From a virus: a DNA stretch of 40,067 nt. Of this stretch, positions 17,549 through 37,749 are shown one piece after another. Numbering within the stretch: the stretch's first letter is position 1; each line of letters opens with the position of its first letter. The stretch is from IMG/VR virus record IMGVR_UViG_3300023184_000263, positions 1 through 40,067 of that record. One strand, given 5' to 3'. The notes below the pieces were generated by a model. It was not told the origin of the DNA and searched no databases. It worked only from the letters and a program-made list of their open reading frames with translations. A program made the position numbers and the translations under genes.

Positions 17549-17573
17549 GTTTTTATTGAGTATCAACAAGCTA
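17549..17573. promoter_or_regulatory. 25-bp palindromic operator (left arm degraded)
   Basis: Plus strand ATTGA, GTA, TCAACAAGCTA. Same consensus as the copies at 25911, 25981, 26006, 37676 and 37725; the outer left arm is lost. It lies 25 nt upstream of the -33 box of the 17446 gene. Confidence 0.6.
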
Positions 17574-17591
17574 CGTCAATATAACCCTATC

Positions 17592-17625
17592 ATATTAGTA
17601 TTTTTTATTATATGATACCTAATAT
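17592..17625 (-). terminator. AT-rich hairpin at transcript end
   Basis: Minus strand ATATTAGGTAT (17625-17615) pairs with ATACTAATAT (17601-17592), ten pairs with one bulged G. No T tract follows, so termination is uncertain. A similar ATATTAG/CTAATAT hairpin follows the gene at 26074. Confidence 0.4.
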
Positions 17626-17942
17626 TATTTAAAATTATAGTTATCCAATTTTGCTAAACATTTTGTTATCATAACTGCCAAATCGGCCGCACTTCTAACA
17701 TCCGAATTATATATTTCAACTTCGGTAGCAGCAGCCCATCCCATAACATATAATTTATAATTACCTTGTGGTTTTCTATCTCTGTCTAAATAAACTTCTA
17801 CATCTACGTGTCCATCATCTTTAAATACAAATACATAGGAATCATATCCCATTCTTTCATTATGTAGATTATAAAATTCTTTTATGGTTCGGCTATTACA
17901 TACATAACCAACCATTTTTTCTATGTTTTTTATTGTAAGCAT
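17625..17942 (-). CDS. LTIKN-family paralogue
   Basis: A 105-residue member: MLTIKNIEKMVGYVCNSRTIKEFYNLHNERMGYDSYVFVF, then VYLDRDRKPQGNYKLYVMGW (LxR/G-Y core) and a long terminal helix (VRSAADLAVMITKCLAKLDNY). One base separates it from the upstream gene. Last gene before the operator-containing gap. Function unknown. Confidence 0.8.
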   Translation of the reverse strand: MLTIKNIEKMVGYVCNSRTIKEFYNLHNERMGYDSYVFVFKDDGHVDVEVYLDRDRKPQGNYKLYVMGWAAATEVEIYNSDVRSAADLAVMITKCLAKLDNYNFK

Positions 17943-17943
17943 A

Positions 17944-18207
17944 TTATAATTTTTGTATTTTTTCCATTACTTCGGTTACATCAACAGGTCTTAAATAACC
18001 AATCACATCATTTGTAATTGGTGTATCGTAACATATCTCGCCATCTTTAAAGATGGCTAATTCATATAGTCCTTTATCACCACCATAAGTGTATTTACTT
18101 TTTACTACTGATACTTCATACCCATTATCAAATTTAGTTCTGCTTACAATTCCAAAATCCTCACCCATTGGGTTTGATTTGAATATTATGTCTTTAAATG
18201 TTTTCAT
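17944..18207 (-). CDS. Conserved phage-type small protein (YGG-x-GLYE)
   Basis: Eighty-seven residues with NGYEVSVVKSKYTYGGDKGLYELAIFKDGEICYDTPITNDVIGYLRPVDVTEVMEKI. The pattern NGY-x-VSV...YGG..GL-Y/W-E-AV/I...D-V-x-G-Y/x-L is one I recognise from many tailed phages, always without assigned function. Single beta sheet and final helix. It has its own promoter 20 nt upstream. Confidence 0.75.
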   Translation of the reverse strand: MKTFKDIIFKSNPMGEDFGIVSRTKFDNGYEVSVVKSKYTYGGDKGLYELAIFKDGEICYDTPITNDVIGYLRPVDVTEVMEKIQKL

Positions 18208-18227
18208 AATTTGTTTTATTTAATCTA

Positions 18228-18259
18228 TAAAGGTAGTTCATTTTTCTCATACTACCAAA
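18228..18259 (-). promoter_or_regulatory. Bacteroidetes-type promoter
   Basis: Minus strand TTTG (18259-18256), 20-nt spacer beginning GTAGTATG, TACCTTTA (18235-18228), then 20 nt to the ATG at 18207. Confidence 0.83.
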
Positions 18260-18260
18260 T

Positions 18261-18611
18261 CTATTTGTATGATTTAATTGGTTTAATTTTCATTTGCCAA
18301 TTATTGTTACCCGCCATTTGGCATATCATATAACCAAACCAATCTTTGTTTTTAATACAATTCAAAGTCACTTCGGTTCTGTTATTAGATGCATGCGTTT
18401 GATACATAACATAGTTACCACTATATTTTGCACCACTATCCCTTAATAGTGTAAATCCAATGTAATCTTCTATTGGTCCATTTGCTTTTGTTAATGAAAC
18501 AGTTATTCCATACTTTTCCTTACCTTCGTTTATGTCCTCAATAGATAAAGTATAACCATCACATTGAATATAATCACCTTTAAGTTTATTAAAGTTTTTA
18601 ATGTTTAACAT
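18261..18611 (-). CDS. LTIKN-family paralogue
   Basis: A 116-residue member: MLNIKNFNKLKGDYIQCDGYTLSIEDINEGKEKYGITVSL, TLLRDSGAKYSGNYVMYQ (LxR/G-Y core), TLNCIKNKDWFGYMICQM helix and a basic extension (MKIKPIKSYK). The stop precedes the promoter of the next gene by one base. Function unknown. Confidence 0.8.
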   Translation of the reverse strand: MLNIKNFNKLKGDYIQCDGYTLSIEDINEGKEKYGITVSLTKANGPIEDYIGFTLLRDSGAKYSGNYVMYQTHASNNRTEVTLNCIKNKDWFGYMICQMAGNNNWQMKIKPIKSYK

Positions 18612-18614
18612 AAA

Positions 18615-19142
18615 CTATGGTTTAAGTTGTTTAATATGTTTACACGTTTGTGGTGTTTCTTTACTATATTGATAGGCAGGACAGGTACAACTCCAATCAC
18701 TAGTCCCCAATACATTTTCTGTCACTTCGTATGTTACATTAGGACCTGAACTACTCGGTACAATATGTTTAATTTCGGTCATAGTTATATCAGTCATGCC
18801 CATCATATTAGGTCTTACATCTTTTAAATCAACCTTATTTGCCACATCATACATATTTGAAATAGCAAAATCTTTAAATCGTTCTACTGTCAACATATGT
18901 GCTTTTGGAATAGGTAATTTTTCGTGCAAATACCAACCATCCGTTCCTTCACCTACTACACATATCTTAACATTGTATTGTTCTTTATCCCAATCCATTT
19001 CAAATAGAACTACATTATTCCAATCAGTAGTTCCATTATCCATCACAAAAAATCCATCGTTAGCTACGTCAATTGTAAGTTTCTTACTACCTACTATTAT
19101 TTGTTCGTTATCTACTTTGTTAAAGTTTTCTGGTTTTTTCAT
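18615..19142 (-). CDS. SWIM zinc-finger protein
   Basis: A 175-residue protein. The C-terminus has SWIM form: VTYEVTENVLGTSDWSCTCPAYQYSKETPQTCKHIKQLKP, that is CxC at about 151-153 and CxH at about 167-169. SWIM modules bind zinc and mediate protein or DNA contacts. The N-terminal 130 residues (GFFVMDNGTTDWNNVVLFEMDWDKEQ...) are unrecognised. A second SWIM protein lies at 21676-22014. The N-terminus does not match that protein. Confidence 0.82.
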   Translation of the reverse strand: MKKPENFNKVDNEQIIVGSKKLTIDVANDGFFVMDNGTTDWNNVVLFEMDWDKEQYNVKICVVGEGTDGWYLHEKLPIPKAHMLTVERFKDFAISNMYDVANKVDLKDVRPNMMGMTDITMTEIKHIVPSSSGPNVTYEVTENVLGTSDWSCTCPAYQYSKETPQTCKHIKQLKP

Positions 19143-19543
19143 ATTTTATAAATTTTAATTTTTCTTAATTTAGTTTGTTTATCGTTTGCTCCAATTAATA
19201 TATCAATTCGTTTCGTATATCGTTTGTTCATTACATCCTGAACTTTGTATGTACCACTATATTTACCGGCACCAACAATTCTAATCTTTTGTCCAAACTT
19301 ATATTTCTTTTTTAGGTCTCTACTAACTGCAATAATTCTATGTTTCTTTGGGTTAGTAATCTTAAAACCACTTGCAGTTATATTTGGTGTACTATCGGTT
19401 TCAGTTTCGTTTGCTTTATATGTGGTTAGTGTCACTATTTCGGGAGTAATTGTTTCAATCATTGTGTTGATTCGTAACTCTTCCCGTTCCATTTCGTAAG
19501 GTAAACAAACCATTACGATTGAAAGTATTATATTGTAATTCAT
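19139..19543 (-). CDS. 3D-domain (RlpA-like fold) cell-wall protein
   Basis: A 134-residue protein. Hydrophobic start (NYNIILSIVMVCLP) then charged linker. From about residue 40: TTYKANETETDSTPNITASGFKI...RIIAVSRDLKKKYKFGQKIRIVGAGKYSGTYKVQDVMNKRYTKRIDILI. The DS-x-P...Y..G..V.D.M....RIDI layout is the '3D' double-psi beta barrel seen in lytic transglycosylases and resuscitation factors. Likely exported or membrane-anchored and acting on peptidoglycan in lysis or entry. Confidence 0.78.
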   Translation of the reverse strand: MNYNIILSIVMVCLPYEMEREELRINTMIETITPEIVTLTTYKANETETDSTPNITASGFKITNPKKHRIIAVSRDLKKKYKFGQKIRIVGAGKYSGTYKVQDVMNKRYTKRIDILIGANDKQTKLRKIKIYKI

Positions 19544-19546
19544 AAC

Positions 19547-19855
19547 TTATAATAATTTTGGTTTCCAATCGTCAGTCAATAAATCTAGTTTGTCCATTAG
19601 ACTATCTATATTCATTATGTCCTCGTGCTTTATCCAATAAGGATATCTTACACAATATGCTTGGTTACTATATTTTCCAATTGTGTAATAACCATTTTTT
19701 TCCGGCCTTCTATTTAAGATAATAAAATGTCTCATATGACCTCTCCATACATTAATTCTATATTCATCTCTCGTTTCTTCAATATCTTCAATGTAGTTTT
19801 TATCATCCCATTCTTTACGGAATAGTTTTTCAAAGTTCTTAATTGTTAGTTTCAT
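19547..19855 (-). CDS. LTIKN-family paralogue
   Basis: Start set at ATG 19855 (MKLTIKNFEKLFRKEW, 102 residues); the frame extends to 19882 inside the upstream peptidase gene. Core: YIEDIEETRDEYRINVWRG, ILNRRPEKNGYYTIGKY (N-R-R/G-Y strands), and an acidic helix end. It overlaps the upstream gene by 17 nt. Function unknown. Confidence 0.78.
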   Translation of the reverse strand: MKLTIKNFEKLFRKEWDDKNYIEDIEETRDEYRINVWRGHMRHFIILNRRPEKNGYYTIGKYSNQAYCVRYPYWIKHEDIMNIDSLMDKLDLLTDDWKPKLL

Positions 19856-20216
19856 AATATTTTCGTTTATGTCTTTCTTCAAATTTAGATTCCACTAATT
19901 GTGCTGCTTTCTTATATCCTTTATCTAATAGTAATATGACCGCAAACATATCAGCCGCAACTTCATCACTTTCGTTTTTATCCTTTGTGTGTTTCAACAT
20001 TATGTGTGCTACTTCATGTGCTTCTACCCACCGCAATTCATCTTTGGTCAATTTCACTTCACCATCAATGAATACACAACCCGAACTTGTTTCAGCAAAA
20101 CCAAAACCACATTGTTCAAATAGTGGTTTCATTACTTCGTATCGGTGGTCATCTTTGGTTAGTATTGCAACTGCAACATCACTACGGAACTCACTAAAAT
20201 ATGTTTTTGTTTTCAT
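19839..20216 (-). CDS. Zinc metallopeptidase-like (HEVAH)
   Basis: A 125-residue protein with RWVEAHEVAHIMLKHTKD (HExxH at 67-71) and a downstream NESDEVAADMFAVILLL helix supplying an acidic third ligand. This is the arrangement of ImmA/IrrE-like peptidases, which cleave repressors or host regulators. The domain is small and lacks a second DNA-binding domain. It shares one base with the upstream gene. Confidence 0.82.
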   Translation of the reverse strand: MKTKTYFSEFRSDVAVAILTKDDHRYEVMKPLFEQCGFGFAETSSGCVFIDGEVKLTKDELRWVEAHEVAHIMLKHTKDKNESDEVAADMFAVILLLDKGYKKAAQLVESKFEERHKRKYYETNN

Positions 20217-20581
20217 TAGTCTTTTATTAAATCGTAAATCATATTTTGAATATTTGCTACCGATGATATTCTTTCCTTATCATATCCTCTATGGTATAAT
20301 GGAATGTATGAACCATTTGGTCTTTTTTCAAATAACTGAACGTCAATGTGATTGTTTCCATTGTTTAATGTAATATCCATTCTCATTATTTCCGGTACTG
20401 AAAATGATGTTGGAATCCATTTGAAATGAACTCCATATTTTTTACCACTTGAATCCGCACCTAAATCTGCAACTTCGGTACATACATATTGTTGTGCTGT
20501 TGCTGAGAATATACCAATAGTAAATACTCTATCCATCAACATCATTGGTCCTCTTTCTTTCTTTGGAAATATTTTTTTCAT
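20216..20581 (-). CDS. Uncharacterised beta-rich protein
   Basis: A 121-residue protein: basic start (MKKIFPKKERGPMM), then LMDRVFTIGIFSATAQQYVCTEV, GVHFKWIPTSFSVPEI, MDITLNNGNNHIDVQLFEKRPNGSYIPLYHRG and a helix (VANIQNMIYDLIKD). The E-K-R-P-N-G-S-Y segment echoes the L-x-R...G-Y element of the LTIKN family, so it may be a remote relative without the start. Not proven. Confidence 0.65.
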   Translation of the reverse strand: MKKIFPKKERGPMMLMDRVFTIGIFSATAQQYVCTEVADLGADSSGKKYGVHFKWIPTSFSVPEIMRMDITLNNGNNHIDVQLFEKRPNGSYIPLYHRGYDKERISSVANIQNMIYDLIKD

Positions 20582-20599
20582 AACTTATTGTTTTTAATG

Positions 20600-20815
20600 T
20601 TATCTATATAATGTTACAAACTCACCGAACTCTCTATCAAATACTTCAATTAAATGGTCATAGTTACCCTTCATCATTTCGGCTTGAATAGCTTTACCAT
20701 CTAATCCTAATTGTTTAGCTAATCTACTAGCCATACCAATTAATACAAATGCGTTACCATCAGGTCCCGTCAAATCAATTTCAATTCCTAACTTTTCATT
20801 TTTACTTTTTATCAT
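20600..20815 (-). CDS. Conserved phage-type protein (GPDGNAF)
   Basis: I start it at ATG 20815 (MIKSKNEKLGIEIDLTGPDGNAFVLIGMASRL, 71 residues). The frame runs to 20881, but a separate 32-codon gene ends at 20820, just upstream. The core IDLTGPDGNAFVLIGMA...MKGNYDHLIEVFDREFGEFVTL is a pattern I know from many large phages, function unassigned. Confidence 0.72.
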   Translation of the reverse strand: MIKSKNEKLGIEIDLTGPDGNAFVLIGMASRLAKQLGLDGKAIQAEMMKGNYDHLIEVFDREFGEFVTLYR

Positions 20816-20819
20816 AACT

Positions 20820-20918
20820 TTATTTTTTATAATTTCTTGCATCCCATCTTTCAAATTCGTGGTGTTGTTTTGCACACTCATTAAGAATATACAAAACTTT
20901 TTTAATAAACTTCTTCAT
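20820..20918 (-). CDS. 32-residue basic peptide
   Basis: ATG at 20918, one base after the stop of 20920-21291, reads MKKFIKKVLYILNECAKQHHEF, then ERWDARNYKK and a stop at 20820-20822. The amphipathic basic start and the DARNYKK end (compare QYDARKYSK at the end of 22576-22797) suggest a real peptide. The tight junctions on both sides support it. Confidence 0.6.
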   Translation of the reverse strand: MKKFIKKVLYILNECAKQHHEFERWDARNYKK

Positions 20919-20919
20919 A

Positions 20920-21291
20920 TTACCACCAACTTGTGTAATAAACTGTCTTACCATTACTAATAGCTTCCCTTGCTTTAGTAACAAACAACAAATCATTTTC
21001 TATTTCATCATCACCACTTTGTCCAAAAAAGAAACCGGATGTGTCTGGTAAATTACCATCTTTAACATCTTGTTCTAAATTGTCTAAATCTTCACTATCC
21101 AATACAACACAATCACCATTAAAATTAGATTCCGTTCCACCCTTTGCATCATATAATGATTGCATCCAACCATGTAAGTTAGGATGTTTTCTCCAATAGT
21201 GAACTTCCTCTGGTTTAAAATTCTTAGTTTCAAAGTCTACATCCGTTTTCGGTTTTGCGTTAGTAGAAAACGCGTACATGTCTAATCCCAT
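20920..21291 (-). CDS. Conserved phage protein (MGLDMYA family)
   Basis: A 123-residue protein with the strongly conserved MGLDMYAFS start, VHYWRKHPNLHGWMQSLYDAKGG, FNGDCVVLDSEDLDNLEQDVKDGNLPDTSGFFFGQS and VYYTSWW end. I recall this family from many phages and marine viral sequences, often misnamed; its function is unknown. The many Trp, His and Asp residues suggest a metal or carbohydrate site. Confidence 0.8.
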   Translation of the reverse strand: MGLDMYAFSTNAKPKTDVDFETKNFKPEEVHYWRKHPNLHGWMQSLYDAKGGTESNFNGDCVVLDSEDLDNLEQDVKDGNLPDTSGFFFGQSGDDEIENDLLFVTKAREAISNGKTVYYTSWW

Positions 21292-21315
21292 AACTTAATT
21301 TTTATTTTGTTTATA

Positions 21316-21672
21316 TTAATATTTTACTTTACCAAATGCCATTGCCATAGATAATTCATACCTATCGTAGAACTCTACATTTTGTTTCACTTCGTTGATA
21401 TCAATTTTACAATCAATCGTGTCACCTTTTGCATTACATCCTACAATTAGTCCATTACCTGCGAATGGCTGATGTGCTCCTTTATACACAAAGAATATGT
21501 TTTCACTATTAAACAATCCTTCATCATCTACCATAATAGTATCACGCTTCTTTAATGAATGTGCTATTGTGAATATTTGAGAACCGATTTGTTTGTTAAT
21601 ATCATTGTAGTCAGATGTAATATCTACTTCAATAACTTGTCTTTTTACTGCATCAATTTTAATTGCTTTCAT
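21316..21672 (-). CDS. DUF3846-like protein
   Basis: A 118-residue protein: MKAIKIDAVKRQVIEVDITSDYNDINKQIGSQIFTI, then TIMVDDEGLFNSENIFFVYKGAHQPFAGNGLIVGCNAKGDTID. The VDxEGL and QPFAGNG-V/I-G elements fit the DUF3846 family of phage and plasmid proteins. Function unknown. Ends in VEFYDRYELSMAMAFG. Confidence 0.78.
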   Translation of the reverse strand: MKAIKIDAVKRQVIEVDITSDYNDINKQIGSQIFTIAHSLKKRDTIMVDDEGLFNSENIFFVYKGAHQPFAGNGLIVGCNAKGDTIDCKIDINEVKQNVEFYDRYELSMAMAFGKVKY

Positions 21673-21675
21673 GTT

Positions 21676-22014
21676 TTACTTTTTATTTTTTATTTTAATA
21701 ATGTGTTTACAATCTCTACCTCTACCGAAACCATGTGCGGGACAACTACAACTCCAAAACCCTTCATCATTTACTACTTTGTATGTGTTACCTTTACTAC
21801 CTGCAACTTTGAACTCTTTAAGTTTAGTTTTAATTAGTTTAGGTTTTTTACCATACTCAATTTTATCCCACATCCTTTCTAATTCATTCCAACCATACCA
21901 TCTAGTTACTTCTATCCACCCACTGCTTTTTTCACCACCGGTACATACAATCCACGTCTTACCCGATAATGGTGATTCAAAACAAATAGGTGGTAATACT
22001 GATTTGATTCTCAT
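21676..22014 (-). CDS. SWIM zinc-finger protein
   Basis: A 112-residue protein. N-terminal strands with GKTWIVCTGGEKSSGWIEVTRW, then VAGSKGNTYKVVNDEGFWSCSCPAHGFGRGRDCKHIIKIKNKK: CxC at about 94-96 and CxH at about 105-107, the SWIM form. It has the same finger as 18615-19142 but a shorter, different N-terminus. The SWIM tail is placed at the extreme C-terminus in both, a layout for tethering to a partner. Confidence 0.82.
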   Translation of the reverse strand: MRIKSVLPPICFESPLSGKTWIVCTGGEKSSGWIEVTRWYGWNELERMWDKIEYGKKPKLIKTKLKEFKVAGSKGNTYKVVNDEGFWSCSCPAHGFGRGRDCKHIIKIKNKK

Positions 22015-22017
22015 AAC

Positions 22018-22170
22018 TTATCTTATTTTCTTTGAATACTCTTTGTTTATTATTATGGTTTTTATATCATTATTAGATGTTAATTGTGTAATATGTGAAT
22101 AAGATAATTTGTTTATATTCACTTTATCACCTAATTTTGTCACTATGGTTATATCGTAGTATGTTTTCAT
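22018..22170 (-). CDS. 50-residue basic protein
   Basis: ATG at 22170 shares its A with the upstream stop (TAATG). It reads MKTYYDITIVTKLGDKVNINKL, then SYSHITQLTSNNDIKTIIINKEYSKKIR and a stop at 22018-22020, with a TAAGTTATG junction to the next gene. The beta-strand pattern (YYDITIV...KTIIIN) suggests a small sheet protein. Function unknown. Confidence 0.65.
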   Translation of the reverse strand: MKTYYDITIVTKLGDKVNINKLSYSHITQLTSNNDIKTIIINKEYSKKIR

Positions 22171-22574
22171 TAGTCTAAATGGTTTCTATATCCTGGACCA
22201 GCATTACCAAATTGAGCGGTGCTCATAAATGTTTCAATGCCATGTCTCTTAAATGGTTTCTCTTTCTTAGGTTTAATACCCATCTTACGATTATATCTTT
22301 GTGTAAATAACAATAACAAATCATAGAACCTATCTTTCCAAAACTCTATTGCTTTTGTTTCTACCTTATCGTACCTATCAACTCTTTTTGCTTTACCGAA
22401 CTTAGTCATTATAGGTTCACCCCATACAGGTGTATAACATTTCACTTTGGTTTCACCTTCCATATCCTTCTTTGTTAAGTAGGTTAATGCTTCATTACAT
22501 ACATCTAAGGCCTCTTTATGATAACCAGCTTTGCTCATCCACTTTGATTTCTCAATCGATTCTATTAAGTTCAT
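22170..22574 (-). CDS. Basic uncharacterised protein
   Basis: A 134-residue protein: helical start (MNLIESIEKSKWMSKAGYHKEALDVCNEAL), CYTPVWGEPIMTKFGKAKRVDRYDKVE, a helix, then a basic tail (RYNRKMGIKPKKEKPFKRH) and GNAGPGYRNH. The first 40 residues resemble a TPR-like helix pair. Function unknown. Confidence 0.68.
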   Translation of the reverse strand: MNLIESIEKSKWMSKAGYHKEALDVCNEALTYLTKKDMEGETKVKCYTPVWGEPIMTKFGKAKRVDRYDKVETKAIEFWKDRFYDLLLLFTQRYNRKMGIKPKKEKPFKRHGIETFMSTAQFGNAGPGYRNHLD

Positions 22575-22575
22575 A

Positions 22576-22797
22576 CTAATTATTTTTAAAGTTTAATTTA
22601 GAATATTTTCTCGCATCATATTGTCTCATTAGGTCACCTGCATTTAATTTCAATGTTGGGTCCTCATATGATTGAGATATATTTAATTCCTTCATCCATT
22701 TCTGATATTCTAAATTACCCATTGTTTCTTGTCTTTCTTGTTCTAACTTCTCCCACATTAATATATTTGGGTCAGTTTCGTTGTTATATATTGCCAT
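22576..22797 (-). CDS. Small helical protein
   Basis: Seventy-three residues: MAIYNNETDPNILMWEKLEQERQETMGNLEYQKWMKELNIS, then SYEDPTLKLNAGDLMRQYDARKYSKLNFKNN. Charged helices with coiled-coil heptads at 14-38. The C-terminal DARKYSK echoes the end of the peptide at 20820-20918. Function unknown. Confidence 0.67.
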   Translation of the reverse strand: MAIYNNETDPNILMWEKLEQERQETMGNLEYQKWMKELNISQSYEDPTLKLNAGDLMRQYDARKYSKLNFKNN

Positions 22798-22798
22798 T

Positions 22799-22993
22799 TT
22801 ATTTTTTTTTATTTTTAAAAATTGTTTCTGTGATTATTAAGTAATACCATCTCGGTAAATAAAAGAAACACTTTATAAAGACCCATATATTGTATCTTAC
22901 ATCGTGCTCTAATGTTCTACCTTTCATTTGCTGTTTGATTGTATATAGTAACGGAAATAACGCTACTAAATACCACAATAAAAATGTTCTCAT
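22799..22993 (-). CDS. Membrane protein, 64 residues
   Basis: MRTFLLWYLVALFPLLYTIKQQMKGRTLEHD holds an N-terminal span followed by a basic loop. VRYNIWVFIKCFFYLPRWYYLIITETIF then forms a Trp/Tyr-rich second span, and KNKKK is cytoplasmic. One-base junctions on both sides. Function unknown. Confidence 0.7.
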   Translation of the reverse strand: MRTFLLWYLVALFPLLYTIKQQMKGRTLEHDVRYNIWVFIKCFFYLPRWYYLIITETIFKNKKK

Positions 22994-22994
22994 A

Positions 22995-23675
22995 TTAACA
23001 TCCCCTCAATGCATACTTGCCGTTTAATTGTTTAGCTAAATACCAACCTCTTTTTTTGGATGGATTTCGTAATGATTGTAAGTGATGAATAAAACTACCA
23101 CCCTCAATCATACTACTATTACCTCTAATATAAACATCATAAAACGTTTTCATTTCAGTAAAGGTTGCATCCGGTTTACTATTCATAAACTGCCATATTT
23201 GTTTACTAATCTGTCCATATGGTTTACCCGAATGTGGTGAGTTTTTTGGTGTTTTTGTCACTACGGCTTTTTGTGCATTTCCATACAAAGAATTAGATAT
23301 TGCTTTATACGCAGGATTCTTTTTACTTTGTATTCTATTGTAGTGTCCATCTGCTAAACCTAATTTCATATTACCTAATATACGAGCATTTACAACGGAT
23401 ACTTCATTATATGCCATATTCTGTCTATGAATACCTTTCGTACTATTGTAGTTTGGATTCTTAGGATGCAGATATATGTCAATGTATTCAGCTTTACGCC
23501 AAGGTACATCATTTTGTTTACCAACACTCCAATTTGTCACTACGGATTTTCGGTTATTATGTCTACCTTTCAATACTACCCAACCAAAGATTTGTTCTAA
23601 TACTTTTTTAACTTCTATAACTTGCTCCTCATTTTTCATTGGGATAGTTGCGATATAATTTTTTGTTCTGCTCAT
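22995..23675 (-). CDS. Basic uncharacterised protein
   Basis: A 226-residue very basic protein. Segments include IATIPMKNEEQVIEVKKVLEQIFGWVVLKGRHNNRKSVV, IYLHPKNPNYNSTKGIHRQNMAYNEVSVVNARILGNM, a Lys/Asn-rich linker and a C-terminal FMNSKPDATFTEMKTFYDVYIRG helix-turn-helix-like unit with GWYLAKQLNGKYALRG. The size, charge and terminal unit suggest nucleic-acid binding, but no named domain is recognised. Confidence 0.7.
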   Translation of the reverse strand: MSRTKNYIATIPMKNEEQVIEVKKVLEQIFGWVVLKGRHNNRKSVVTNWSVGKQNDVPWRKAEYIDIYLHPKNPNYNSTKGIHRQNMAYNEVSVVNARILGNMKLGLADGHYNRIQSKKNPAYKAISNSLYGNAQKAVVTKTPKNSPHSGKPYGQISKQIWQFMNSKPDATFTEMKTFYDVYIRGNSSMIEGGSFIHHLQSLRNPSKKRGWYLAKQLNGKYALRGC

Positions 23676-23685
23676 ATTGTTTGTT

Positions 23686-24036: not shown

Positions 24037-24037
24037 A

Positions 24038-24586: not shown

Positions 24587-24598
24587 ATGTTATAGTTT

Positions 24599-24736: not shown

Positions 24737-24737
24737 A

Positions 24738-25586
24738 TTACTTAACTTTAGCTAATTTACTTTGAGCAGCTTTTGTTATCATTGGATTAACATCATACAC
24801 ACTAAACTTGCTATCCATAGGGATAATGAATTTGTTATGTGCGGTATCAATCTTATTTCTAACAAACTTAAATTTCAATCCTACAATTACACCCGTCTCA
24901 TCTAAGTGTCTCATATCGTATGCATCACCATCAATCACATCATAACCCATAAATGCTTTTGGTAATTGTTTACCTTCAAATACCATAGCAACTCTACCTT
25001 TTTGTTTATTCAACAAATCTAAACATTGGAACATATTGTAACCACTAAAAGAATAAGTCAAATCATAGTTAGGATAGAATTGTAATAAACCAAAACGTTT
25101 AGCTACCTTAGTATAATCATAAAATGTCACTTCGTTAAACACTTCAAATATTACTTTACCATTATATTGAAACAAAGTAGGCTCAATATCCGATGTACCA
25201 TTTAATCTAACTGAAAATGTAAACCCTTTGTTAATTGCGTCAGCTTTAGCTTTACTAATTTCGGCTACCAACCAACCCATAAAGAATGCTCTATGCTCAA
25301 AGAACAATTTAGTTTTTTTGATACGAGCTTTATTGATTGCGTTTTTCTTTACGTCAATTCTATTGTGTCCACTTTCAGTTAAACACGCTTCTCTACATTC
25401 TGCCGTACTCATAGGACAAACATTATAACCACTTAACGATGCAGGCGCAAGATACAATATGTAAGTCATTTCATTGTACTTTAAACCTTTAGCGATTTTT
25501 GAACTGCTCGCTACACTACCTAAATAAGATAAACCCGTTTGCTTTTTAGCATTACCAATTGTTGTAAACTTCATTGTGTTATTCAT
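24738..25586 (-). CDS. Gp88-like phage protein
   Basis: A 282-residue protein resembling the 'gene product 88' family of phage proteins. Visible: KKQTGLSYLGSVASSSKIAKGLKYNEMTYILYLAPASLSGYNVCPMSTAECREACLTESGHNR with three Cys (about 57, 64, 68) after LAPASLSG. It also has FSVRLNGTSDIEP, FEVFNEVTFYDYTKV, YPNYDLTYSFSG and VIDGDAYDMRHLDETGVIVGLKFK. The Cys cluster may bind a metal. Function of the family is not known. It follows a strong terminator. Confidence 0.82.
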   Translation of the reverse strand: MNNTMKFTTIGNAKKQTGLSYLGSVASSSKIAKGLKYNEMTYILYLAPASLSGYNVCPMSTAECREACLTESGHNRIDVKKNAINKARIKKTKLFFEHRAFFMGWLVAEISKAKADAINKGFTFSVRLNGTSDIEPTLFQYNGKVIFEVFNEVTFYDYTKVAKRFGLLQFYPNYDLTYSFSGYNMFQCLDLLNKQKGRVAMVFEGKQLPKAFMGYDVIDGDAYDMRHLDETGVIVGLKFKFVRNKIDTAHNKFIIPMDSKFSVYDVNPMITKAAQSKLAKVK

Positions 25587-25608
25587 ATATTTGCTTTTAA
25601 TTGTTATA

Positions 25609-25634: not shown

Positions 25635-25639
25635 ATTTT

Positions 25640-25798
25640 TTATTTAGTTTCTTCATTATGTTTAAATACTATTTCAAACTTTCTATCTTCAATAGAAAAA
25701 CTATCTAAGACCGTTTGTAATTGTTTTGCCAGATTATCTAATTTAGATTCATCTTTAAATTCAAATTCAATGTTGAACTGAAATGTTACACTATTCAT
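25640..25798 (-). CDS. Small protein in single-gene transcript
   Basis: I start it at ATG 25798 (MNSVTFQFNIEFEFKDESKLDNLAKQLQTVLDS, 52 residues) rather than 25828, because the intervening ten codons vary between the two copies of the leader module. Two beta strands flank a helix. The FQFNIEFEF strand followed by K-D-E is a compact beta-alpha-beta. It has its own promoter with three upstream palindromes and a strong terminator right after it, so it is probably independently and strongly controlled. Function unknown. Confidence 0.72.
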   Translation of the reverse strand: MNSVTFQFNIEFEFKDESKLDNLAKQLQTVLDSFSIEDRKFEIVFKHNEETK

Positions 25799-25868
25799 AT
25801 TATAAAATTTTACTATGTGACTACCCATTCTCTCGACTCAATACATAAAGATACGACTTTATATTGGA
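25798..25868 (-). repeat. Duplicated promoter-leader module, copy 2
   Basis: The partner of 17446-17516. Identical over 43 bp (25826-25868) and similar down to the second ATG, with the same spacing between both ATGs. Confidence 0.9.
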
Positions 25869-25876
25869 CTTTGAAC
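25846..25876 (-). promoter_or_regulatory. Operator-linked promoter
   Basis: Minus strand TATCTTTA (25853-25846), no TTTG at -33 (GTTC at 25876-25873). A defective -33 box and three palindromes upstream fit an activator-dependent promoter. Leader of 47 nt to the ATG at 25798. Confidence 0.7.
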
Positions 25877-25910
25877 AGTCGAAGGTAACTATTTTTAGGT
25901 TTTTTAAAGA

Positions 25911-25935
25911 TTTTTGACTGACTATCAATGAGTTA
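25911..25935. promoter_or_regulatory. 25-bp palindromic operator, copy with weak left arm
   Basis: Plus strand: CTGA, CTA, TCAATGAGTTA. The right arm is the full consensus half-site; the left arm is degenerate. Confidence 0.7.
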
Positions 25936-25980: not shown

Positions 25981-26005
25981 TAACCCATTGAAAATCAATA
26001 AGTTA
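25981..26005. promoter_or_regulatory. 25-bp palindromic operator
   Basis: Plus strand TAACCCATTGA, AAA, TCAATAAGTTA: arms match the consensus with only 2 mismatched pairs. Confidence 0.8.
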
Positions 26006-26030
26006 TAACTCTTTGACAATCAATGGGTTA
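26006..26030. promoter_or_regulatory. 25-bp palindromic operator, tandem with previous
   Basis: Plus strand TAACTCTTTGA, CAA, TCAATGGGTTA. It abuts the previous copy with no gap, so two dimers would bind side by side on the same face pattern at 25-bp spacing. Confidence 0.8.
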
Positions 26031-30959: not shown

Positions 30960-30961
30960 AA

Positions 30962-31692: not shown

Positions 31693-31695
31693 ATT

Positions 31696-31727
31696 CAAAT
31701 ATACTAATAAATAATGAAATAAAAAAA
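31696..31727 (-). promoter_or_regulatory. Promoter with exact -7 box, leaderless
   Basis: Minus strand TATATTTG (31703-31696), with TTTT rather than TTTG 20 nt upstream (31727-31724). The ATG follows after 3 nt. Confidence 0.7.
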
Positions 31728-31756
31728 TAAAGGGGAACATTTCTGCTCCCCCTTTC
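31720..31756 (-). terminator. Rho-independent terminator
   Basis: Minus strand AAAGGGG (31755-31749), loop region GAGCAGAAATGTT, CCCCTTT (31735-31729), then ATTTTTTTAT. It ends the nuclease-ParB transcript. Confidence 0.88.
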
Positions 31757-31758
31757 AC

Positions 31759-33303
31759 TTAACTTCTAAATTTAAGAATCATGTTTATAGTTTCAACCAA
31801 TTTACCACGTGTGTGATATCTTCTGCCATTCGAATCTTTCCCAAACTCACCTTCTACAAACTTTTTTAGTTCTTCTTTATTTTTTGGAAATACATCTATA
31901 TCATTATAATTTAATGATGAAAAGTCACTATCTGTTTTTGGTGCAGGTAACCAACCTGCTGTTTGGAAAAACTCTTTGGTAAGATTAGTAACAACTAAAT
32001 TAAATTGTTCTTCATCGATAAAATATAAAGTTTTTAATGATGTACAAAATTGTCTTAAAATATCCTTTTTCATAGAAATAATCTCAATTTCTTTGTTTTT
32101 ATTTAGTTTCAAATAATTTCGACTATAATGAGGACTTGCTTTTATACATTCTTTATGTTCATGTATTGCATTAATAAAACTTTCAGTACATTTTTTAATT
32201 GGTTCTAATATATTAGTATATTCATCTTCATCAAATAATAAATTACCCATTTTCATATTATCCAAGTTGCTACCCCAGCTACCAATTGATTCTTGATTTT
32301 GAATACAATATGATTGTAAATTAACTCCTGCTTTATCTGCATCACCTTTTTTAGGGTCTATTAATTTTGTTAAAGAAAGCATATCATTATACAATTGCTG
32401 ATATGGATATAATTTTTCTAAGTTTTGTGTTAATTCGTAAGTTTTCTTCCAACTTTTAACATACCCAAAATTATCCCAATTTAAAACAATTGTATTTAAA
32501 GAACTCATCAATGTTGTAACTTCTTCTTGTGGTACATCATTTAAATGCGTTAATACCATTACAGGTACATCAGTAATTTCATATCCATAATTATCTCTAA
32601 TTATCTTAGCCGCCTCTAATAAATGATGTGCATCAACTAATTTAAGTTTTTTATTTATATAAATTCCAGTAAAACATCTAATTATACCAACTTGTATTTT
32701 ACCTTTACCCAATAAAGTTAATATTGAACGGACTAATTTAAAAACATGCGGCCAATCAATATCTCTATTAACATCATTACTAAATAATTTATCAAGTTTA
32801 TGATATTCTACATTACCAATATTTAGTTTACCATTTGAAATGTTTTCCAATGCTTTATTTGCTATATATTGCTCAATATCCGCCATACCATAAATAATTT
32901 CAATACCTTGTTTAGCAAGTTCTTTATCTATTGCAGTGTCACTATATTGTTCAATAAAAGAAACAAAATTAAATCCATTTTTAATTCCAGATTCTTGATA
33001 ATCCGGTAATTCATCTCTCTTTGTAGTTGTTGAAAGTGAACATTCAACTACTAAATCAAATTTAGGTAACCAAAAATCTGCAATTTTCTTTCTATAAGCA
33101 GAAAAGCTTACAGTCTTTGTTTTAAAGGGGGAACTTTTGAGAGGAACATTTGGTAATAGACCATACTTTTTTAATAAGTCCTCAACTTTCTTTTCAAATG
33201 CATTTGATTTTTTTACATTTTGAGAAGATGCAATGCTTTTAGCACTTTTTGTTGCCTTTTTTTTAGCGACAACTTTGTTTCTTACGCTTTTACTTTTAGC
33301 CAT
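31759..33303 (-). CDS. PD-(D/E)XK-like nuclease fused to ParB-like domain
   Basis: A 514-residue protein. Residues 1-33 are very basic (KSVRNKVVAKKKATKSAK), a likely DNA-binding tail. Residues 36-140 resemble a restriction-endonuclease fold: FEKKVEDLLKKYG, then IADFWLPKFDLVVECSL with Asp76, Asp83 and Glu87 in the D...ExK region, but Ser89 in place of the catalytic Lys. Residues 200-290 match a ParB/Srx fold: NKKLKLVDAHHLLEAAKII, DVPVMVL, EEVTTLMSSLNTIVLNWDNFGYVKSW. The C-terminal 200 residues are unrecognised. It is monocistronic with its own promoter and terminator. Confidence 0.68.
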   Translation of the reverse strand: MAKSKSVRNKVVAKKKATKSAKSIASSQNVKKSNAFEKKVEDLLKKYGLLPNVPLKSSPFKTKTVSFSAYRKKIADFWLPKFDLVVECSLSTTTKRDELPDYQESGIKNGFNFVSFIEQYSDTAIDKELAKQGIEIIYGMADIEQYIANKALENISNGKLNIGNVEYHKLDKLFSNDVNRDIDWPHVFKLVRSILTLLGKGKIQVGIIRCFTGIYINKKLKLVDAHHLLEAAKIIRDNYGYEITDVPVMVLTHLNDVPQEEVTTLMSSLNTIVLNWDNFGYVKSWKKTYELTQNLEKLYPYQQLYNDMLSLTKLIDPKKGDADKAGVNLQSYCIQNQESIGSWGSNLDNMKMGNLLFDEDEYTNILEPIKKCTESFINAIHEHKECIKASPHYSRNYLKLNKNKEIEIISMKKDILRQFCTSLKTLYFIDEEQFNLVVTNLTKEFFQTAGWLPAPKTDSDFSSLNYNDIDVFPKNKEELKKFVEGEFGKDSNGRRYHTRGKLVETINMILKFRS

Positions 33304-33386
33304 AATTATTATTTTTAACCATTCCTGGTCGATTATTGTTTACCTTTCTACTTCCGTAAGGCGTAAACAAATGTTCCTATTATACT

Positions 33387-33418
33387 CAAATATACAACAA
33401 TTTATTGTATCTACCAAA
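33387..33418 (-). promoter_or_regulatory. Perfect Bacteroidetes-type promoter
   Basis: Minus strand TTTG (33418-33415), 20-nt spacer starting GTAG, TATATTTG (33394-33387). An 83-nt leader follows, the longest in the window, with an imperfect hairpin (GTTTAC...GTAAAC, about 33334-33370). Confidence 0.9.
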
Positions 33419-33445
33419 AAAAGGGGAACTTTTTTAGTTCCCCTT
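33416..33445 (-). terminator. Rho-independent terminator
   Basis: Minus strand AAGGGGAACT (33445-33436), loop AAAAA, AGTTCCCCTT (33430-33421), then TTTTTGG. A 10-bp stem with strong T tract. It ends the 36240-33452 transcript. Confidence 0.93.
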
Positions 33446-33451
33446 AATATT

Positions 33452-34306
33452 TTATTGTTTCAATGATAAAATTGTACCAGCTCCACTACCTACGATTGTA
33501 GTAGGCTGAACTCCGTTCCAACGTGTTGCTTTAATATACTCTACATAAGTAGGCGTTAATACTTGTTGTATTTTCTTAACTGCCTCAGCTTCACCCATTG
33601 CGTTAATTACTTTTGTTGCACTATCACCTCTTGCTTTAGCTATTTGTTTGTTAGCTTCAGCGATTGAACTTTGTAACTGCATTTTAGATGTCTCAGCATC
33701 TTGTTTTGCTTTAATCTTTGCGTTAATAGATTGTGCTAAATTTGCATCGGTTGGTGTTGGTTGCTTTAAAATACTAAAGTTATCTACAATGAAACCATCT
33801 TTCTCAAATCTTTCAGTTACATTCTTACGAACCGCTGCCTCAAATCCTGGCATATTGTTTAAGATACTATCCACCGTAATATAACCACTCACATCCTGCA
33901 TACTACCTCTAACTACATTTCGTAAGTAAGTTTGTGAAATACTCTCTAAATCATCTGTCTTATACTTTAAGTAAATCTTAGATGCTTTAACTGGATTAAC
34001 ACGGTAGTTTAAACCTACATCAATTTTAAATCCTGCTCCACCTAAACATGCGACTGTGATATGTTCGTTTGGTTTACTACCTTCGTTTTCATCCTCACTC
34101 CAAATCACGTGTTGCTGTGTTGTTGGAATTGTCACTACATAGGTAAATCCTGGTGTATAGAACTGAAATCCAGTCAATAAAGGTAAACTATCAATACCTC
34201 TATAATCCCCACTATTATCAATCTTAAAACCTACTTCGGTTGGATTGATACGGGTACAACTACCTAATGTCACTACTAATGCGATTAACGCTAATACTTT
34301 TTTCAT
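33452..34306 (-). CDS. SPFH/prohibitin-like lipoprotein
   Basis: A 284-residue protein. Signal MKKVLALIALVVTLGSC has a lipobox with Cys17. The SPFH domain follows: INPTEVGFKIDNSGDYRG, FQFYTPGFTYVVTIPTTQQHVIW, VACLGGAGFKIDVGLNYRVNPVKASKIYLKY, then the long coiled region (FSILKQPTPTDANLAQSINAKIKAKQDAETSKMQLQSSIAEANKQIAKARGDSATK). The EADK-type coils resemble prohibitin and HflC. It would form a lipid-anchored ring outside the inner membrane. The second SPFH gene in this window. Confidence 0.88.
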   Translation of the reverse strand: MKKVLALIALVVTLGSCTRINPTEVGFKIDNSGDYRGIDSLPLLTGFQFYTPGFTYVVTIPTTQQHVIWSEDENEGSKPNEHITVACLGGAGFKIDVGLNYRVNPVKASKIYLKYKTDDLESISQTYLRNVVRGSMQDVSGYITVDSILNNMPGFEAAVRKNVTERFEKDGFIVDNFSILKQPTPTDANLAQSINAKIKAKQDAETSKMQLQSSIAEANKQIAKARGDSATKVINAMGEAEAVKKIQQVLTPTYVEYIKATRWNGVQPTTIVGSGAGTILSLKQ

Positions 34307-34307
34307 A

Positions 34308-34544
34308 CTATTTTGTTTTGTTTGTTTTGTTTAAAATTTTAAATGCTATTTTGTAAAAGATAATAAATGGAATAACTAAAGGCCATAGTAAAGTTCCTAA
34401 AATACACAATAATATGTATTTCATATGCCAATCACCATATCTATCCATATAATTTATACTTTCATCTTCATTATTTTCTTTTGTTTTCATAAATGCTATA
34501 AATGTAGCACAATATAAAACACTAATTAATAAATAACCTATCAT
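34308..34544 (-). CDS. Small membrane protein, two or three spans
   Basis: Seventy-eight residues: MIGYLLISVLYCATFIAFMK span, an acidic loop (ENNEDESINYMDRYGDW), then HMKYILLCILGTLLWPLVIPFIIFYKIAF span(s) and a Lys/Asn tail. A single base separates it from the SPFH lipoprotein gene. Could be its membrane partner. Function unknown. Confidence 0.72.
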   Translation of the reverse strand: MIGYLLISVLYCATFIAFMKTKENNEDESINYMDRYGDWHMKYILLCILGTLLWPLVIPFIIFYKIAFKILNKTNKTK

Positions 34545-34547
34545 AAT

Positions 34548-34742
34548 CTATTTTGTTAATTCTTTAATAATTTGTTTCACTTCGTAAAAGGTAAAGGTTA
34601 ATAACCCAGCCATACCTAAAAAACCTAATACATTTGCTATTGATGATGCCTTGTTCAATAAGAAAAAACATCCTTGCAATCCATAGAATATTATTACTGC
34701 GATAATTGCAATCAATAATACATTTTTAATACCATTTTTCAT
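34548..34742 (-). CDS. Small two-span membrane protein
   Basis: Sixty-four residues: MKNGIKNVLLIAIIAVIIFYGLQGCFFLLNKASSIANVLGFLGMAGLLTFTFYEVKQIIKELTK. Two membrane helices (7-28, 36-53) and basic ends. Gp-like holin size, but no adjacent endolysin is visible. Function unknown. Confidence 0.7.
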   Translation of the reverse strand: MKNGIKNVLLIAIIAVIIFYGLQGCFFLLNKASSIANVLGFLGMAGLLTFTFYEVKQIIKELTK

Positions 34743-34752
34743 TTGTTAAATT

Positions 34753-35061
34753 TTATTTTTTACCATAAATTTGTGTTTCCGTAAAATATTGATATTGAAT
34801 TTCACCTTGATTATTCTTATATCCTATTTTGTATTCAATATCAGTCGTATATAGATTTACATCACCGATAACCCCAATTGTAGAGTCAGGTTTCAAATAT
34901 ACTACTTCACCTTCTTGATATTGAGAAATTCTTAGTTGTTCTTTGTGTTTTGGTTTAACACCACAACTAACAAGTCCTGCTGCTATAAGTGCGAATAATA
35001 CACACAATGCTAATAGAGCACTAATTTGTACATCTCTTTTATCACTTTCTTTACCTTGCAT
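34753..35061 (-). CDS. Membrane-anchored or lipoprotein small protein
   Basis: A 102-residue protein: basic start, a span (ISALLALCVLFALIAAGLVSC) where GLVSC is a plausible lipobox (Cys33), then a soluble beta-rich part: EGEVVYLKPDSTIGVIGDVNLYTTDIEYKIGYKNNQGEIQYQYFTETQIY. The VYLKPD...GVI..V.....Y.I....N.GE..... looks like an SH3-like domain. Probably periplasmic. Function unknown. Confidence 0.7.
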   Translation of the reverse strand: MQGKESDKRDVQISALLALCVLFALIAAGLVSCGVKPKHKEQLRISQYQEGEVVYLKPDSTIGVIGDVNLYTTDIEYKIGYKNNQGEIQYQYFTETQIYGKK

Positions 35062-35064
35062 ATT

Positions 35065-35667
35065 TTAAATGTTTTGTTGTTTGTATAATTGTAAATACTT
35101 GTCACTCATTTTTTTATAGTTCATTCTGAAATTAGTAGGCATTGCTTCATAAATTACTTTGTTACTATATGGTGCGTTACCTGGTCTACTCCATCTTTTT
35201 GAGTATCTCATATAATTGTAGAACTGAACATATGCGTTTGCTTTCTTAATGTAATCGTTAAGGTCAATTGGTAGCTTCCACTTCTTAATTAATTTTACCG
35301 AGCGTTTCTCATTATCCAATTCTAAATCTCTACTTTGCTCTATTGCTTTTTTAACACTACGAATTTTCTTCCCACCCAACCAATCGTCTAAATGAGTCAC
35401 TCCAGTTGAACCCGTTTTCCATATGTTAGTGCTCTTATCTTGCCATTGTGTTAAGTGTGCATATTCGTGTACCAATATACCTAACCAATCTTTACTATTA
35501 CCCGCTACTACTAATCGCATAGTTTCCTCACAAAAGTAACCACTACATCTTATATTACCACTTAATACCAAATATTTAACAGGTCTTATTTGGCATCTTA
35601 TACCTACTTCCTTGCAATGTCCTTTCACATGATTAATGAAAGCCTTTACATTTTTTGTTAATGCCAT
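35065..35667 (-). CDS. Zinc metallopeptidase-like protein (HEYAH)
   Basis: A 200-residue protein with WLGILVHEYAHLTQW (HExxH at 67-71) and a downstream helix (ELDNEKRSVKLIKKW) that supplies an acidic ligand. The first 65 residues include two CxxC-like pairs (CQIRPVKYLVLSGNIRCSGYFC). The basic C-terminal domain (YKKMSDKYLQLYKQQ) resembles other phage wss/SprT-like proteins. Substrate unknown. Second HExxH peptidase of the window besides 19839-20216. Confidence 0.8.
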   Translation of the reverse strand: MALTKNVKAFINHVKGHCKEVGIRCQIRPVKYLVLSGNIRCSGYFCEETMRLVVAGNSKDWLGILVHEYAHLTQWQDKSTNIWKTGSTGVTHLDDWLGGKKIRSVKKAIEQSRDLELDNEKRSVKLIKKWKLPIDLNDYIKKANAYVQFYNYMRYSKRWSRPGNAPYSNKVIYEAMPTNFRMNYKKMSDKYLQLYKQQNI

Positions 35668-35676
35668 TTTGTTTGT

Positions 35677-36240
35677 TTAGTTTTTAATAAAAGGATTCAC
35701 TTGTTGAGGCCAATAATCTTCATTATCATCACCTGCAATTGTATTATCATCAGTAAAACGATACTTAGAAATACTATTATCATAGTGCACTGCTCTACCA
35801 GTTTCTTCATCTTCGTATTCTAACGTACCTTCTAACAATTCTTCATCATTTCCGGTCACTTCATACAAACCACAAAAGTCCATACCCGGTTCTTCGTATG
35901 CTAAACTGAATGATAGTGTTGGAAATGCTTTTGCCGCATATTGAATGAATGGGCTATTTGGTGCCCACGCCGTATCATATGTTATTTCTAAATACTCATC
36001 ATCATTTACATTGATACAACTTTCAGCTATATCCCATTTTGTACCCCAATTATCAACTCTCCAACTATACCAACCAGGATTAGCACCGGTCTCTGTTAAT
36101 AAATTGGCAGGTGTTGGATGTAACACTTCCATTGTAAACTTTAATTCATTATCATCCATTACTAAGGTTAATTCTTTGAACTTATTTAATTCATGAATAT
36201 CACCACTTACTTTTAAAAAATTATTGCACCAATTAGGCAT
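35677..36240 (-). CDS. Api92-like (DUF1281) protein
   Basis: A 187-residue protein with MPNWCNNFLKVSGDIHELNKFKEL, EVLHPTPANLLTETGANPGWYSWRVDNWGTKWDIAES, ITYDTAWAPNSPFIQYAAKAFPTLSFSLAYEEPGMDFCGLYEV. The MPNWC-N-x-L-x-V-x-G start and W-Y-x-W-R-x-x-N-W-G-T-K-W-D block are the hallmark of the Api92-like ferredoxin-fold family common in phages and enterobacterial islands. Its job is unknown. Followed by acidic C-terminus. Confidence 0.9.
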   Translation of the reverse strand: MPNWCNNFLKVSGDIHELNKFKELTLVMDDNELKFTMEVLHPTPANLLTETGANPGWYSWRVDNWGTKWDIAESCINVNDDEYLEITYDTAWAPNSPFIQYAAKAFPTLSFSLAYEEPGMDFCGLYEVTGNDEELLEGTLEYEDEETGRAVHYDNSISKYRFTDDNTIAGDDNEDYWPQQVNPFIKN

Positions 36241-36260
36241 ATATTTAAGTTTTATGATTT

Positions 36261-36296
36261 AAAAAATGATAGGGGAACTAAATTAATAGCTCCCCC
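36261..36296 (-). terminator. Probable Rho-independent terminator
   Basis: Minus strand GGGGGAGCTA (36296-36287 region) pairs with TAGTTCCCC (36280-36272), with one mismatch, followed by TATCATTTTTT. It ends the AAA+ transcript. Confidence 0.7.
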
Positions 36297-36308
36297 ATCG
36301 GTTATTTA

Positions 36309-36345
36309 GGTATAGCCGCTATGAGTATGTATAAAAAACTATACC
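36309..36345 (-). repeat. Inverted repeat GGTATAG/CTATACC after the AAA+ gene
   Basis: Minus strand GGTATAG (36345-36339), CTATACC (36315-36309), perfect 7-bp arms around 23 nt, lying 11 nt past the AAA+ stop. Could be an mRNA 3' structure. No T tract of its own. Confidence 0.5.
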
Positions 36346-36356
36346 CTCATAACATA

Positions 36357-37589
36357 TTACCAAACAATAGTATCGTCATTCGTTTCTTCTTCTTTCACTT
36401 CGTTGAATAACTTTTCACCTTCATTCTCGTCTACTACGAATTTTTGTATAAGTTGCTTAATATAAGTACGCTCACTATCCATACCACCATCTTGTGAATA
36501 GAACGGGAAGATTGCTACTTCAGCTGCTTCTAACAAACTGAAACCATCATACAACAAACCTGCCATCTCTACTGAGATACGGGTTGATACAGCAGTTGTC
36601 AATTTACCCGCCTCACCTTTGATTTGGTCTCTAGTGTGTGCGGCAATCTCTGCTACTGATTTCAAATTGTAATCATTCGTATCAGGATATAACATCTTTA
36701 ACAATTCATATTCCTGCTCAGCATTTAATACATCTACCTCAATGGTCACAAATCTATCTAACAATGCTCTATCCATAACACGTGTTGCAGTATATTCCGA
36801 ACCAATGTTAGCCGTTGCAATAAAGGTAACACCTTCTGCTACTTTAACGATTGGTGAATTATCTTGCTCATCTAATCGTAAGTATCTTTGTGTTTGGTCT
36901 AACACTGTCATTAGGATATTAGCGGCTTCTGGATGAGCTCTACTTAATTCATCTAATAACACAACTGCGTAAGGTGTCTTAATAGCTTTAACGAATGCAC
37001 TCTCACTAAAATAAGTACCACTTGCTTTGTTAAAGTGTGTGTTACCAATTAATGCCGCTCTCGGGTCTTGCGTTGCACCTAAGTTAAAGTAATGAAAAGG
37101 TCGTTTCAATGCAGCAACTAATGCTTTAGCAGCCATTGTTTTACCACTACCAGCAGGCCCTGTCATCATTATATTACGAGCGCGAACAGCCGAGCGTAAT
37201 AAATATTTCCATTTTAACTCATTCATAATTAAGTTAGCAGGTTTTAAAGCCATACCTTCTTTATGAATGAAGTCAATAACATCTTTATGCTCCGTTGGAT
37301 TTTCTACGATAGTTTCAGCAATATCGGTATTCATCGGCTTAACCAACATATCCGTATATTCTTGCATTTCTACCATACGATAGCTTTTAGCTCCGTTTTT
37401 GTTTACATGTGCACGAATTGCTTTATTTTGTGCAGATGCTTTTTTTCGTAAAGAACTACCTACTATTGTAGATTCTGAACTACTTAATACATCACCCGCA
37501 GTATTAACTAAATTAAAACGGGATTTAAGGTTTTCTACTTTGTACACTTCATTAGTGTAACCATACTCTTGTGTTGTTTTTTTACTCAT
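36357..37589 (-). CDS. MoxR/CbbQ-type AAA+ ATPase
   Basis: A 410-residue ATPase. Residues 1-120 are an unusual leader with no named domain. Walker A GPAGSGKT is at 144-151, Walker B VVLLDELSR at 210-218, sensor 1 FIATANIG at 257-264 and the arginine-finger region RALLDRF at 275-281. It belongs to the MoxR-like branch (CbbQ, NorQ, RavA) that remodels a partner with a VWA domain. The VWA gene is the next upstream, 176 bp away. It has its own promoter with two palindromic operators. Confidence 0.92.
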   Translation of the reverse strand: MSKKTTQEYGYTNEVYKVENLKSRFNLVNTAGDVLSSSESTIVGSSLRKKASAQNKAIRAHVNKNGAKSYRMVEMQEYTDMLVKPMNTDIAETIVENPTEHKDVIDFIHKEGMALKPANLIMNELKWKYLLRSAVRARNIMMTGPAGSGKTMAAKALVAALKRPFHYFNLGATQDPRAALIGNTHFNKASGTYFSESAFVKAIKTPYAVVLLDELSRAHPEAANILMTVLDQTQRYLRLDEQDNSPIVKVAEGVTFIATANIGSEYTATRVMDRALLDRFVTIEVDVLNAEQEYELLKMLYPDTNDYNLKSVAEIAAHTRDQIKGEAGKLTTAVSTRISVEMAGLLYDGFSLLEAAEVAIFPFYSQDGGMDSERTYIKQLIQKFVVDENEGEKLFNEVKEEETNDDTIVW

Positions 37590-37635
37590 AACTGAAATTT
37601 TAATGTTTATTGTTTATTTATTGTTTGATATATCA

Positions 37636-37667
37636 TAAAGATACGAAATAATGTCCACACTACCAAA
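37636..37667 (-). promoter_or_regulatory. Bacteroidetes-type promoter, operator-linked
   Basis: Minus strand TTTG (37667-37664), 20-nt spacer starting GTAGTG, TATCTTTA (37643-37636). The leader to the ATG is 46 nt, close to those at 17446 and 25798. Confidence 0.88.
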
Positions 37668-37675
37668 ACTACTTT

Positions 37676-37700
37676 TAACTCATTGAATATCAACAAGTTA
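37676..37700. promoter_or_regulatory. 25-bp palindromic operator
   Basis: Plus strand TAACTCATTGA, ATA, TCAACAAGTTA. It lies 9 nt upstream of the -33 box, the closest placement of any copy. Confidence 0.8.
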
Positions 37701-37724
37701 TACACATCCATTTAGGGTAATATA

Positions 37725-37749
37725 TAACTCATTGATACTCAATTAGTTA
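37725..37749. promoter_or_regulatory. 25-bp palindromic operator
   Basis: Plus strand TAACTCATTGA, TAC, TCAATTAGTTA. Centre-to-centre spacing of 49 bp from the previous copy. Confidence 0.8.

Follow-up and report, generated by a model that had tools for sequence, protein, structure and literature searches.

What is a 25-bp palindrome doing in six copies, in three gaps ahead of phage promoters? The window analyzed here is an entire virus record (40,067 bases) with about 30% G+C, and nearly all of its genes are carried on the minus strand. An earlier note had placed six palindrome copies in these three gaps only. A scan of the window with a scoring matrix derived from related viral sites ranked the same six positions at the top (32.8, 32.7, 30.8, 29.1, 15.6, and 8.0 bits), and the seventh score was 0.9 bits. 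Four copies had three or fewer mismatches to the specified bases, compared with none in 100 dinucleotide shuffles. The copies do not occur at a background rate within genes, as coding sequence contains none of the five that score above 15 bits. All three promoters share the -7 box TATCTTTA (Table 1).

Table 1. Palindrome copies, promoter boxes, and target genes in the window, with F84 genes on related contigs (L numbers)
Feature	Position	Strand	Basis or remark
Palindrome copy, distal in MoxR array (TAACTCATTGATACTCAATTAGTTA)	37725..37749	.	Shuffle-tested scan, 32.7 bits
Palindrome copy, promoter-proximal in MoxR array (TAACTCATTGAATATCAACAAGTTA)	37676..37700	.	32.8 bits; 49 bp from partner
-33 box TTTGG of 37589 gene	37663..37667	-	Sequence; 8 bp off palindrome
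-7 box TATCTTTA (consensus TAnnTTTG)	37636..37643	-	24 bp past -33 start
Target gene, MoxR/CobS-like AAA+ ATPase (phrog_249)	36357..37589	-	
Palindrome copy, abuts next one (25-bp spacing)	26006..26030	.	29.1 bits
Palindrome copy	25981..26005	.	30.8 bits
Promoter-proximal copy, one arm intact (hybrid/half site)	25911..25935	.	15.6 bits; same form in L244
Weak -33 box TGTTC	25873..25877	-	Sequence
-7 box TATCTTTA	25846..25853	-	Sequence
Target operon, GP88-family protein (PF17338)	24738..25586	-	Behind 62-aa ORF 25640-25828
Degenerate promoter-proximal copy, remnant of larger array	17549..17573	.	8.0 bits; aligned with G004, G005, G001
Weak -33 box CATTG	17521..17525	-	Sequence
-7 box TATCTTTA	17494..17501	-	Sequence
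Target operon: Kyano_Gp96-like protein, 112-aa protein, ATP-dependent DNA ligase	15670..17476	-	
Small conserved C4 zinc-ribbon protein (F84)	L375:13982-14281, L354:15187-15453, L407:14001-14246		Gene array-preceded in several phages

The window covers part of the genome of a large phage of Bacteroidota type. Promoters of its virus group follow the Bacteroidota form TTTGG-N19-TAnnTTTG, and a Por secretion C-terminal sorting domain is encoded in a site-rich relative; for these two reasons the host is likely a member of the Bacteroidota. Relatives of the MoxR/CobS-like ATPase (99% to 53% identity) were found on IMG/VR contigs, the longest of about 290 kb, and its best matches in deposited phages, both about 51% identical, are in Microcystis phage Mel-JY01 and a 484-kb metagenomic phage. 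The ATPase gene adjoins that of a 736-aa protein (36357-39975 together), which also has relatives in both of these phages. The two proteins are possibly a CobS/CobT-like pair, with the array in between. Elsewhere in the window, a HAD domain of the Swiss Army Knife RNA-repair type (15103-15666) adjoins the DNA ligase gene, and a UvdE-type UV endonuclease and a PfkB-type kinase are also encoded.

The palindrome is not peculiar to the window. In degenerate form, TAA(C/G)TNNTTGANNNTCAANNA(C/G)TTA, it recurs as intergenic tandem arrays in many IMG/VR viruses, and the pattern TAACTNNTTGANNNTCAANNAGTTA matches at least 120 IMG/VR stretches. Scanning related phages with a motif model, as the earlier note had asked, revealed repeated copies in relatives, almost all of them intergenic (at 15 bits or more, 33 in G022, 15 in G004, 12 in G024, and 11 each in G001 and G005), while the matrix scan found no copies of at least 15 bits in three large relatives (G011, G015, and G021). 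Neighboring copies are most commonly spaced 25, 27 to 29, or 49 to 50 bp apart; in G250, arrays in which two or three copies abut stand at operon heads. crAss-like phages were rejected as carriers, having a weak site or two in each genome; in crAssphage ZA these did not exceed the reversed-pattern control.

Comparison with these relatives clarifies the individual arrays. The MoxR-array pair and its 8-bp spacer to the -33 box are conserved in L244, L247, and L248; in relatives this last spacer is constant at 8 bp though its sequence varies, and the window conforms. In G004 and G005, too, the GP88 orthologue lies behind an array. The copy at 17549, in the gap separating the genes at 17147-17476 and 17625-17942, is a conserved footprint despite its weakness, since a better version (e.g., TAACTCGTTGATACTCAATAAA..) stands before the same promoter in G001, G004, and G005. 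Directly upstream of its counterpart, G004 and G005 have two full palindromes that the window does not have. Hybrid sites, in which an intact arm is combined with the other arm TCAANNAANAA, recur at 17549 and 25911 in the window, in L270, L281, L326, and L334, and at 74670 and 78737 in G022; such hybrids occupy the position nearest the promoter in the window and in many relatives.

The relation of the arrays to promoters was examined across the AT-rich viruses. A two-box promoter pointed outward from 92 of 201 arrays and inward in 7, the latter being the chance level (random segments used as a control held a promoter in 1.9% of cases per direction). By the criteria used, about half of these arrays had no promoter. 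Within site-bearing genomes, a recognizable promoter was present in 52% of gaps with a site, compared with 14% of length-matched gaps without one. The distance from palindrome to TTTGG peaked at 19 bp (exactly 19 in 10 gene families), with further values around 8 and 29 to 32 bp that form a weaker 8/19/30 ladder of about 11-bp steps; offsets of 13 to 14 and 24 bp are off the ladder. In the final phasing test, from which arrays of terminator-like sites were left out, phasing was moderate (R = 0.39 at 11 bp, P = 0.003; P = 0.013 with the period free). A count of gene orientations, which carries little weight because genes were called by a simple longest-ORF procedure, showed no preference for divergent gaps.

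The earlier note had read an activator from the location of the copies upstream of the -33 box. The location is borne out by the outward promoters and phased distances, while activation itself is what we infer. It had also regarded poor -33 boxes as a sign of activation. Two window promoters are indeed poor (TGTTC and CATTG), but this does not generalize to relatives: among site-bearing relatives, the fraction with an exact TTTGG was 0.80 for array promoters versus 0.69 for array-free promoters.

Each site in the window also comes shortly after the 3′ end of a gene, and in relatives the upstream gene often ends on the site's first TAA, which serves as its stop codon. Because the genes are all co-directional, a site upstream of one is downstream of another, so position alone cannot separate an operator from a terminator. 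The palindromes might instead be RNA elements, either terminators or mRNA 3′-end hairpins of the upstream gene, and this reading had to be excluded and largely was. At the variable arm positions (4, 6, and 7), the observed pairing equaled the expectation from independent columns, and the core is fixed. None of 272 sites lacking a T-tract was paired at all 11 arm positions. The window sites have no T-tract, a terminator scan lists none of them, and no Rfam model matched in the window. In G022, one array (L341 8415-8510) is flanked by two promoters that diverge from it, and no gene ends close by. The outward promoters, the promoter excess in gaps with sites, and the preferred distance to the next promoter likewise separate an operator from a terminator. 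The pair at 37.7 kb does have a strong RNA fold (z = -8), which speaks for an RNA element, but such a fold would arise anyway from pairing between two copies of the same palindrome; cross-pairing of neighboring copies generally did not exceed that of shuffles, with a weak signal only at 48- to 53-bp spacing. Since the arms are without RNA-pair co-variation and T-tracts are usually missing, the palindrome is not a terminator but a site in double-strand DNA. As a general explanation, an RNA hairpin is ruled out by co-variation, T-tracts, and the divergent array; for the window's palindromes we consider RNA elements very improbable. The hairpin reading is retained for a minority class of matches in relatives, chiefly in G016 (L360-L374), G013 (L483-L487), and L007, which form perfect or near-perfect hairpins (TAACCCATTGANNNTCAATGGGTTA) with T-tracts behind them. 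These are probably intrinsic terminators that happen to match the motif.

The motif is thus a real, conserved double-strand DNA element, intergenic and arrayed, and tied to outward promoters at preferred distances. Because tandem upstream palindromes at preferred helical distances have the anatomy of activator sites, we favor the reading that they are operator arrays for a dimeric activator, probably phage encoded, that co-activates selected phage operons; on balance, this is the probable explanation. A sequence-specific dimeric DNA-binding protein would recognize the palindromes, and neighboring dimers would bind upstream of selected sigma-ABfr-type promoters and contact RNA polymerase from a preferred helix face. 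Several phage operons would thereby be activated jointly, in the window the Gp96-like/ligase, GP88, and MoxR (CobS-like) units. We infer the protein, its dimeric binding, the activation, a viral gene for it, and its timing in infection.

A candidate for the regulator was sought among phage proteins. The earlier note had recognized no regulator gene nearby, and a Pfam scan of the window's small proteins agreed, finding no classical transcription-factor domain; nor was any such domain found by Pfam in profile-selected proteins or in 55 proteins of G250. Presence/absence profiles for proteins confined to site-bearing genomes yielded no DNA-binding candidate. The GP88 protein (24738-25586), which the window shares with the less AT-rich viruses, was rejected as the regulator because no relative of it was found in site-rich G022, G014, G024, and G020 and because Pfam matched it to the GP88 family alone. 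For window positions 22995-23675, the structure predicted from one sequence had a pLDDT of 42 and was uninformative. The profiles did point to the small C4 zinc-ribbon family F84, whose gene is behind an array in G001, G004, G005, and G014, and which is present in the large site-bearing contigs and missing from three site-free ones. It is a weak candidate at best, because nine relatives have F84 without any site.

The failure of profile and domain searches to find a phage regulator is one point in favor of a host-encoded activator or other host factor, with the phage borrowing a host operator. Another comes from a pattern scan of about 85,000 genomes, in which one Microscillaceae genome (MAG Prado074, G046; L125-L204) held 799 copies at one mismatch or fewer, compared with none for the reversed-pattern control; a few other Cytophagales have several. 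However, exact copies occur in only 12 of 194 Cytophagales genomes, and a host regulon was rejected on the ground that most sampled Cytophagales are without the site. Relatives in the family of Prado074 hold 0 to 4 copies each, and the Prado074 copies, which are intergenic and without clear pairing co-variation, showed no association with promoters. Since Prado074 emerged from scanning so many genomes for this very pattern, its copies are possibly an independent repeat family that matches by chance. The sites are also missing from related phages with similar promoters. A host factor is therefore unlikely.

The less AT-rich viruses that encode PhoH (L041, L082, L014, L015, L116, L120, and others) bear on two further readings. 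Their palindromes occur as pairs 50 bp apart with a G+C-rich core between them, located between small genes in both orientations. TTGACA was found about 39 bp before the palindrome in 39 of 113 arrays (14 from both sides), compared with 130 of 1,680 random edges. The palindrome here directly follows sigma70-type promoters, an operator position that would put the site at about +4 to +28; this geometry is that of a repressor. If the same held for the window, the bound protein would shut its promoters, through looping between array members, to which paired sites are suited, or by contacting polymerase from upstream. In the window's group, however, there is no overlap between sites and promoter, and sites occur downstream of promoters only at the chance level; we regard repressor operators as quite unlikely. 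The cassette-boundary-like arrangement in the PhoH-encoding viruses also fits sites for DNA maintenance or recombination (partition, packaging, or gene-shuffling boundaries), and phage N15, which has dispersed centromere-like sites, offers a precedent. The association with promoters and the phasing in the window's group make this improbable. A broader proposal, which we put forward only tentatively, is that unrelated virus groups share a single undescribed family of DNA-binding proteins together with its 25-bp palindromic code. This family and its code would serve as upstream activator arrays in large Bacteroidota phages, as paired operators behind sigma70-type promoters in PhoH phages, and perhaps as decoys or chromosome marks in the one bacterium with about 800 copies.

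No description of the motif turned up when open-access full text was searched for phage operator arrays and for the sequences of the arms. The string TCAACGACTTA appears in a DLP6 terminator table (PMC5349666), and it was rejected as an earlier sighting because the DLP6 genome has no such palindrome.

Gene timing in large Bacteroidota phages is little understood. With upstream activator arrays as the favored reading, the motif delimits a testable regulon, in terms both of the operons included and of the relatives that have it or have lost it, and it can serve as DNA bait in a hunt for the regulator. Should a single protein family turn out to act in several virus groups that are not related, it would amount to a portable control module for phages. 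A puzzle of its own is posed by the one Microscillaceae genome with roughly 800 copies.

Among known systems, the late-gene activators Ogr of P2 and Delta of P4 act on a dyad near -55 of several phage promoters, and the center of the MoxR site would similarly fall near -56. The Ogr sites are short (TGT-N12-ACA) and single, whereas the window-type sites are 25 bp long and arrayed at several phased distances; the motif consensus is TAACTNNTTGANNNTCAANNAGTTA and does not contain the TGT-N12-ACA dyad near -55. At class I promoters, CRP binds a palindrome upstream of the -35 region and works at distances differing by whole helix turns. The upstream palindrome and helix-turn-related distances are shared with the present arrays, which differ in sequence and arm spacing, in belonging to phage genes, and in the Bacteroidota promoter type. 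At T4 middle promoters, a MotA box at -30 replaces the -35 element. There, as predicted here, a phage-wide promoter set is marked by an upstream protein site, but the present motif stands apart from an intact -33 box. The stoperators of mycobacteriophage L5 are asymmetric and oriented with transcription. They offer a lead, in that many short intergenic protein sites run through one phage genome; the sites described here differ in being palindromes, in arrays tied to outward promoters.
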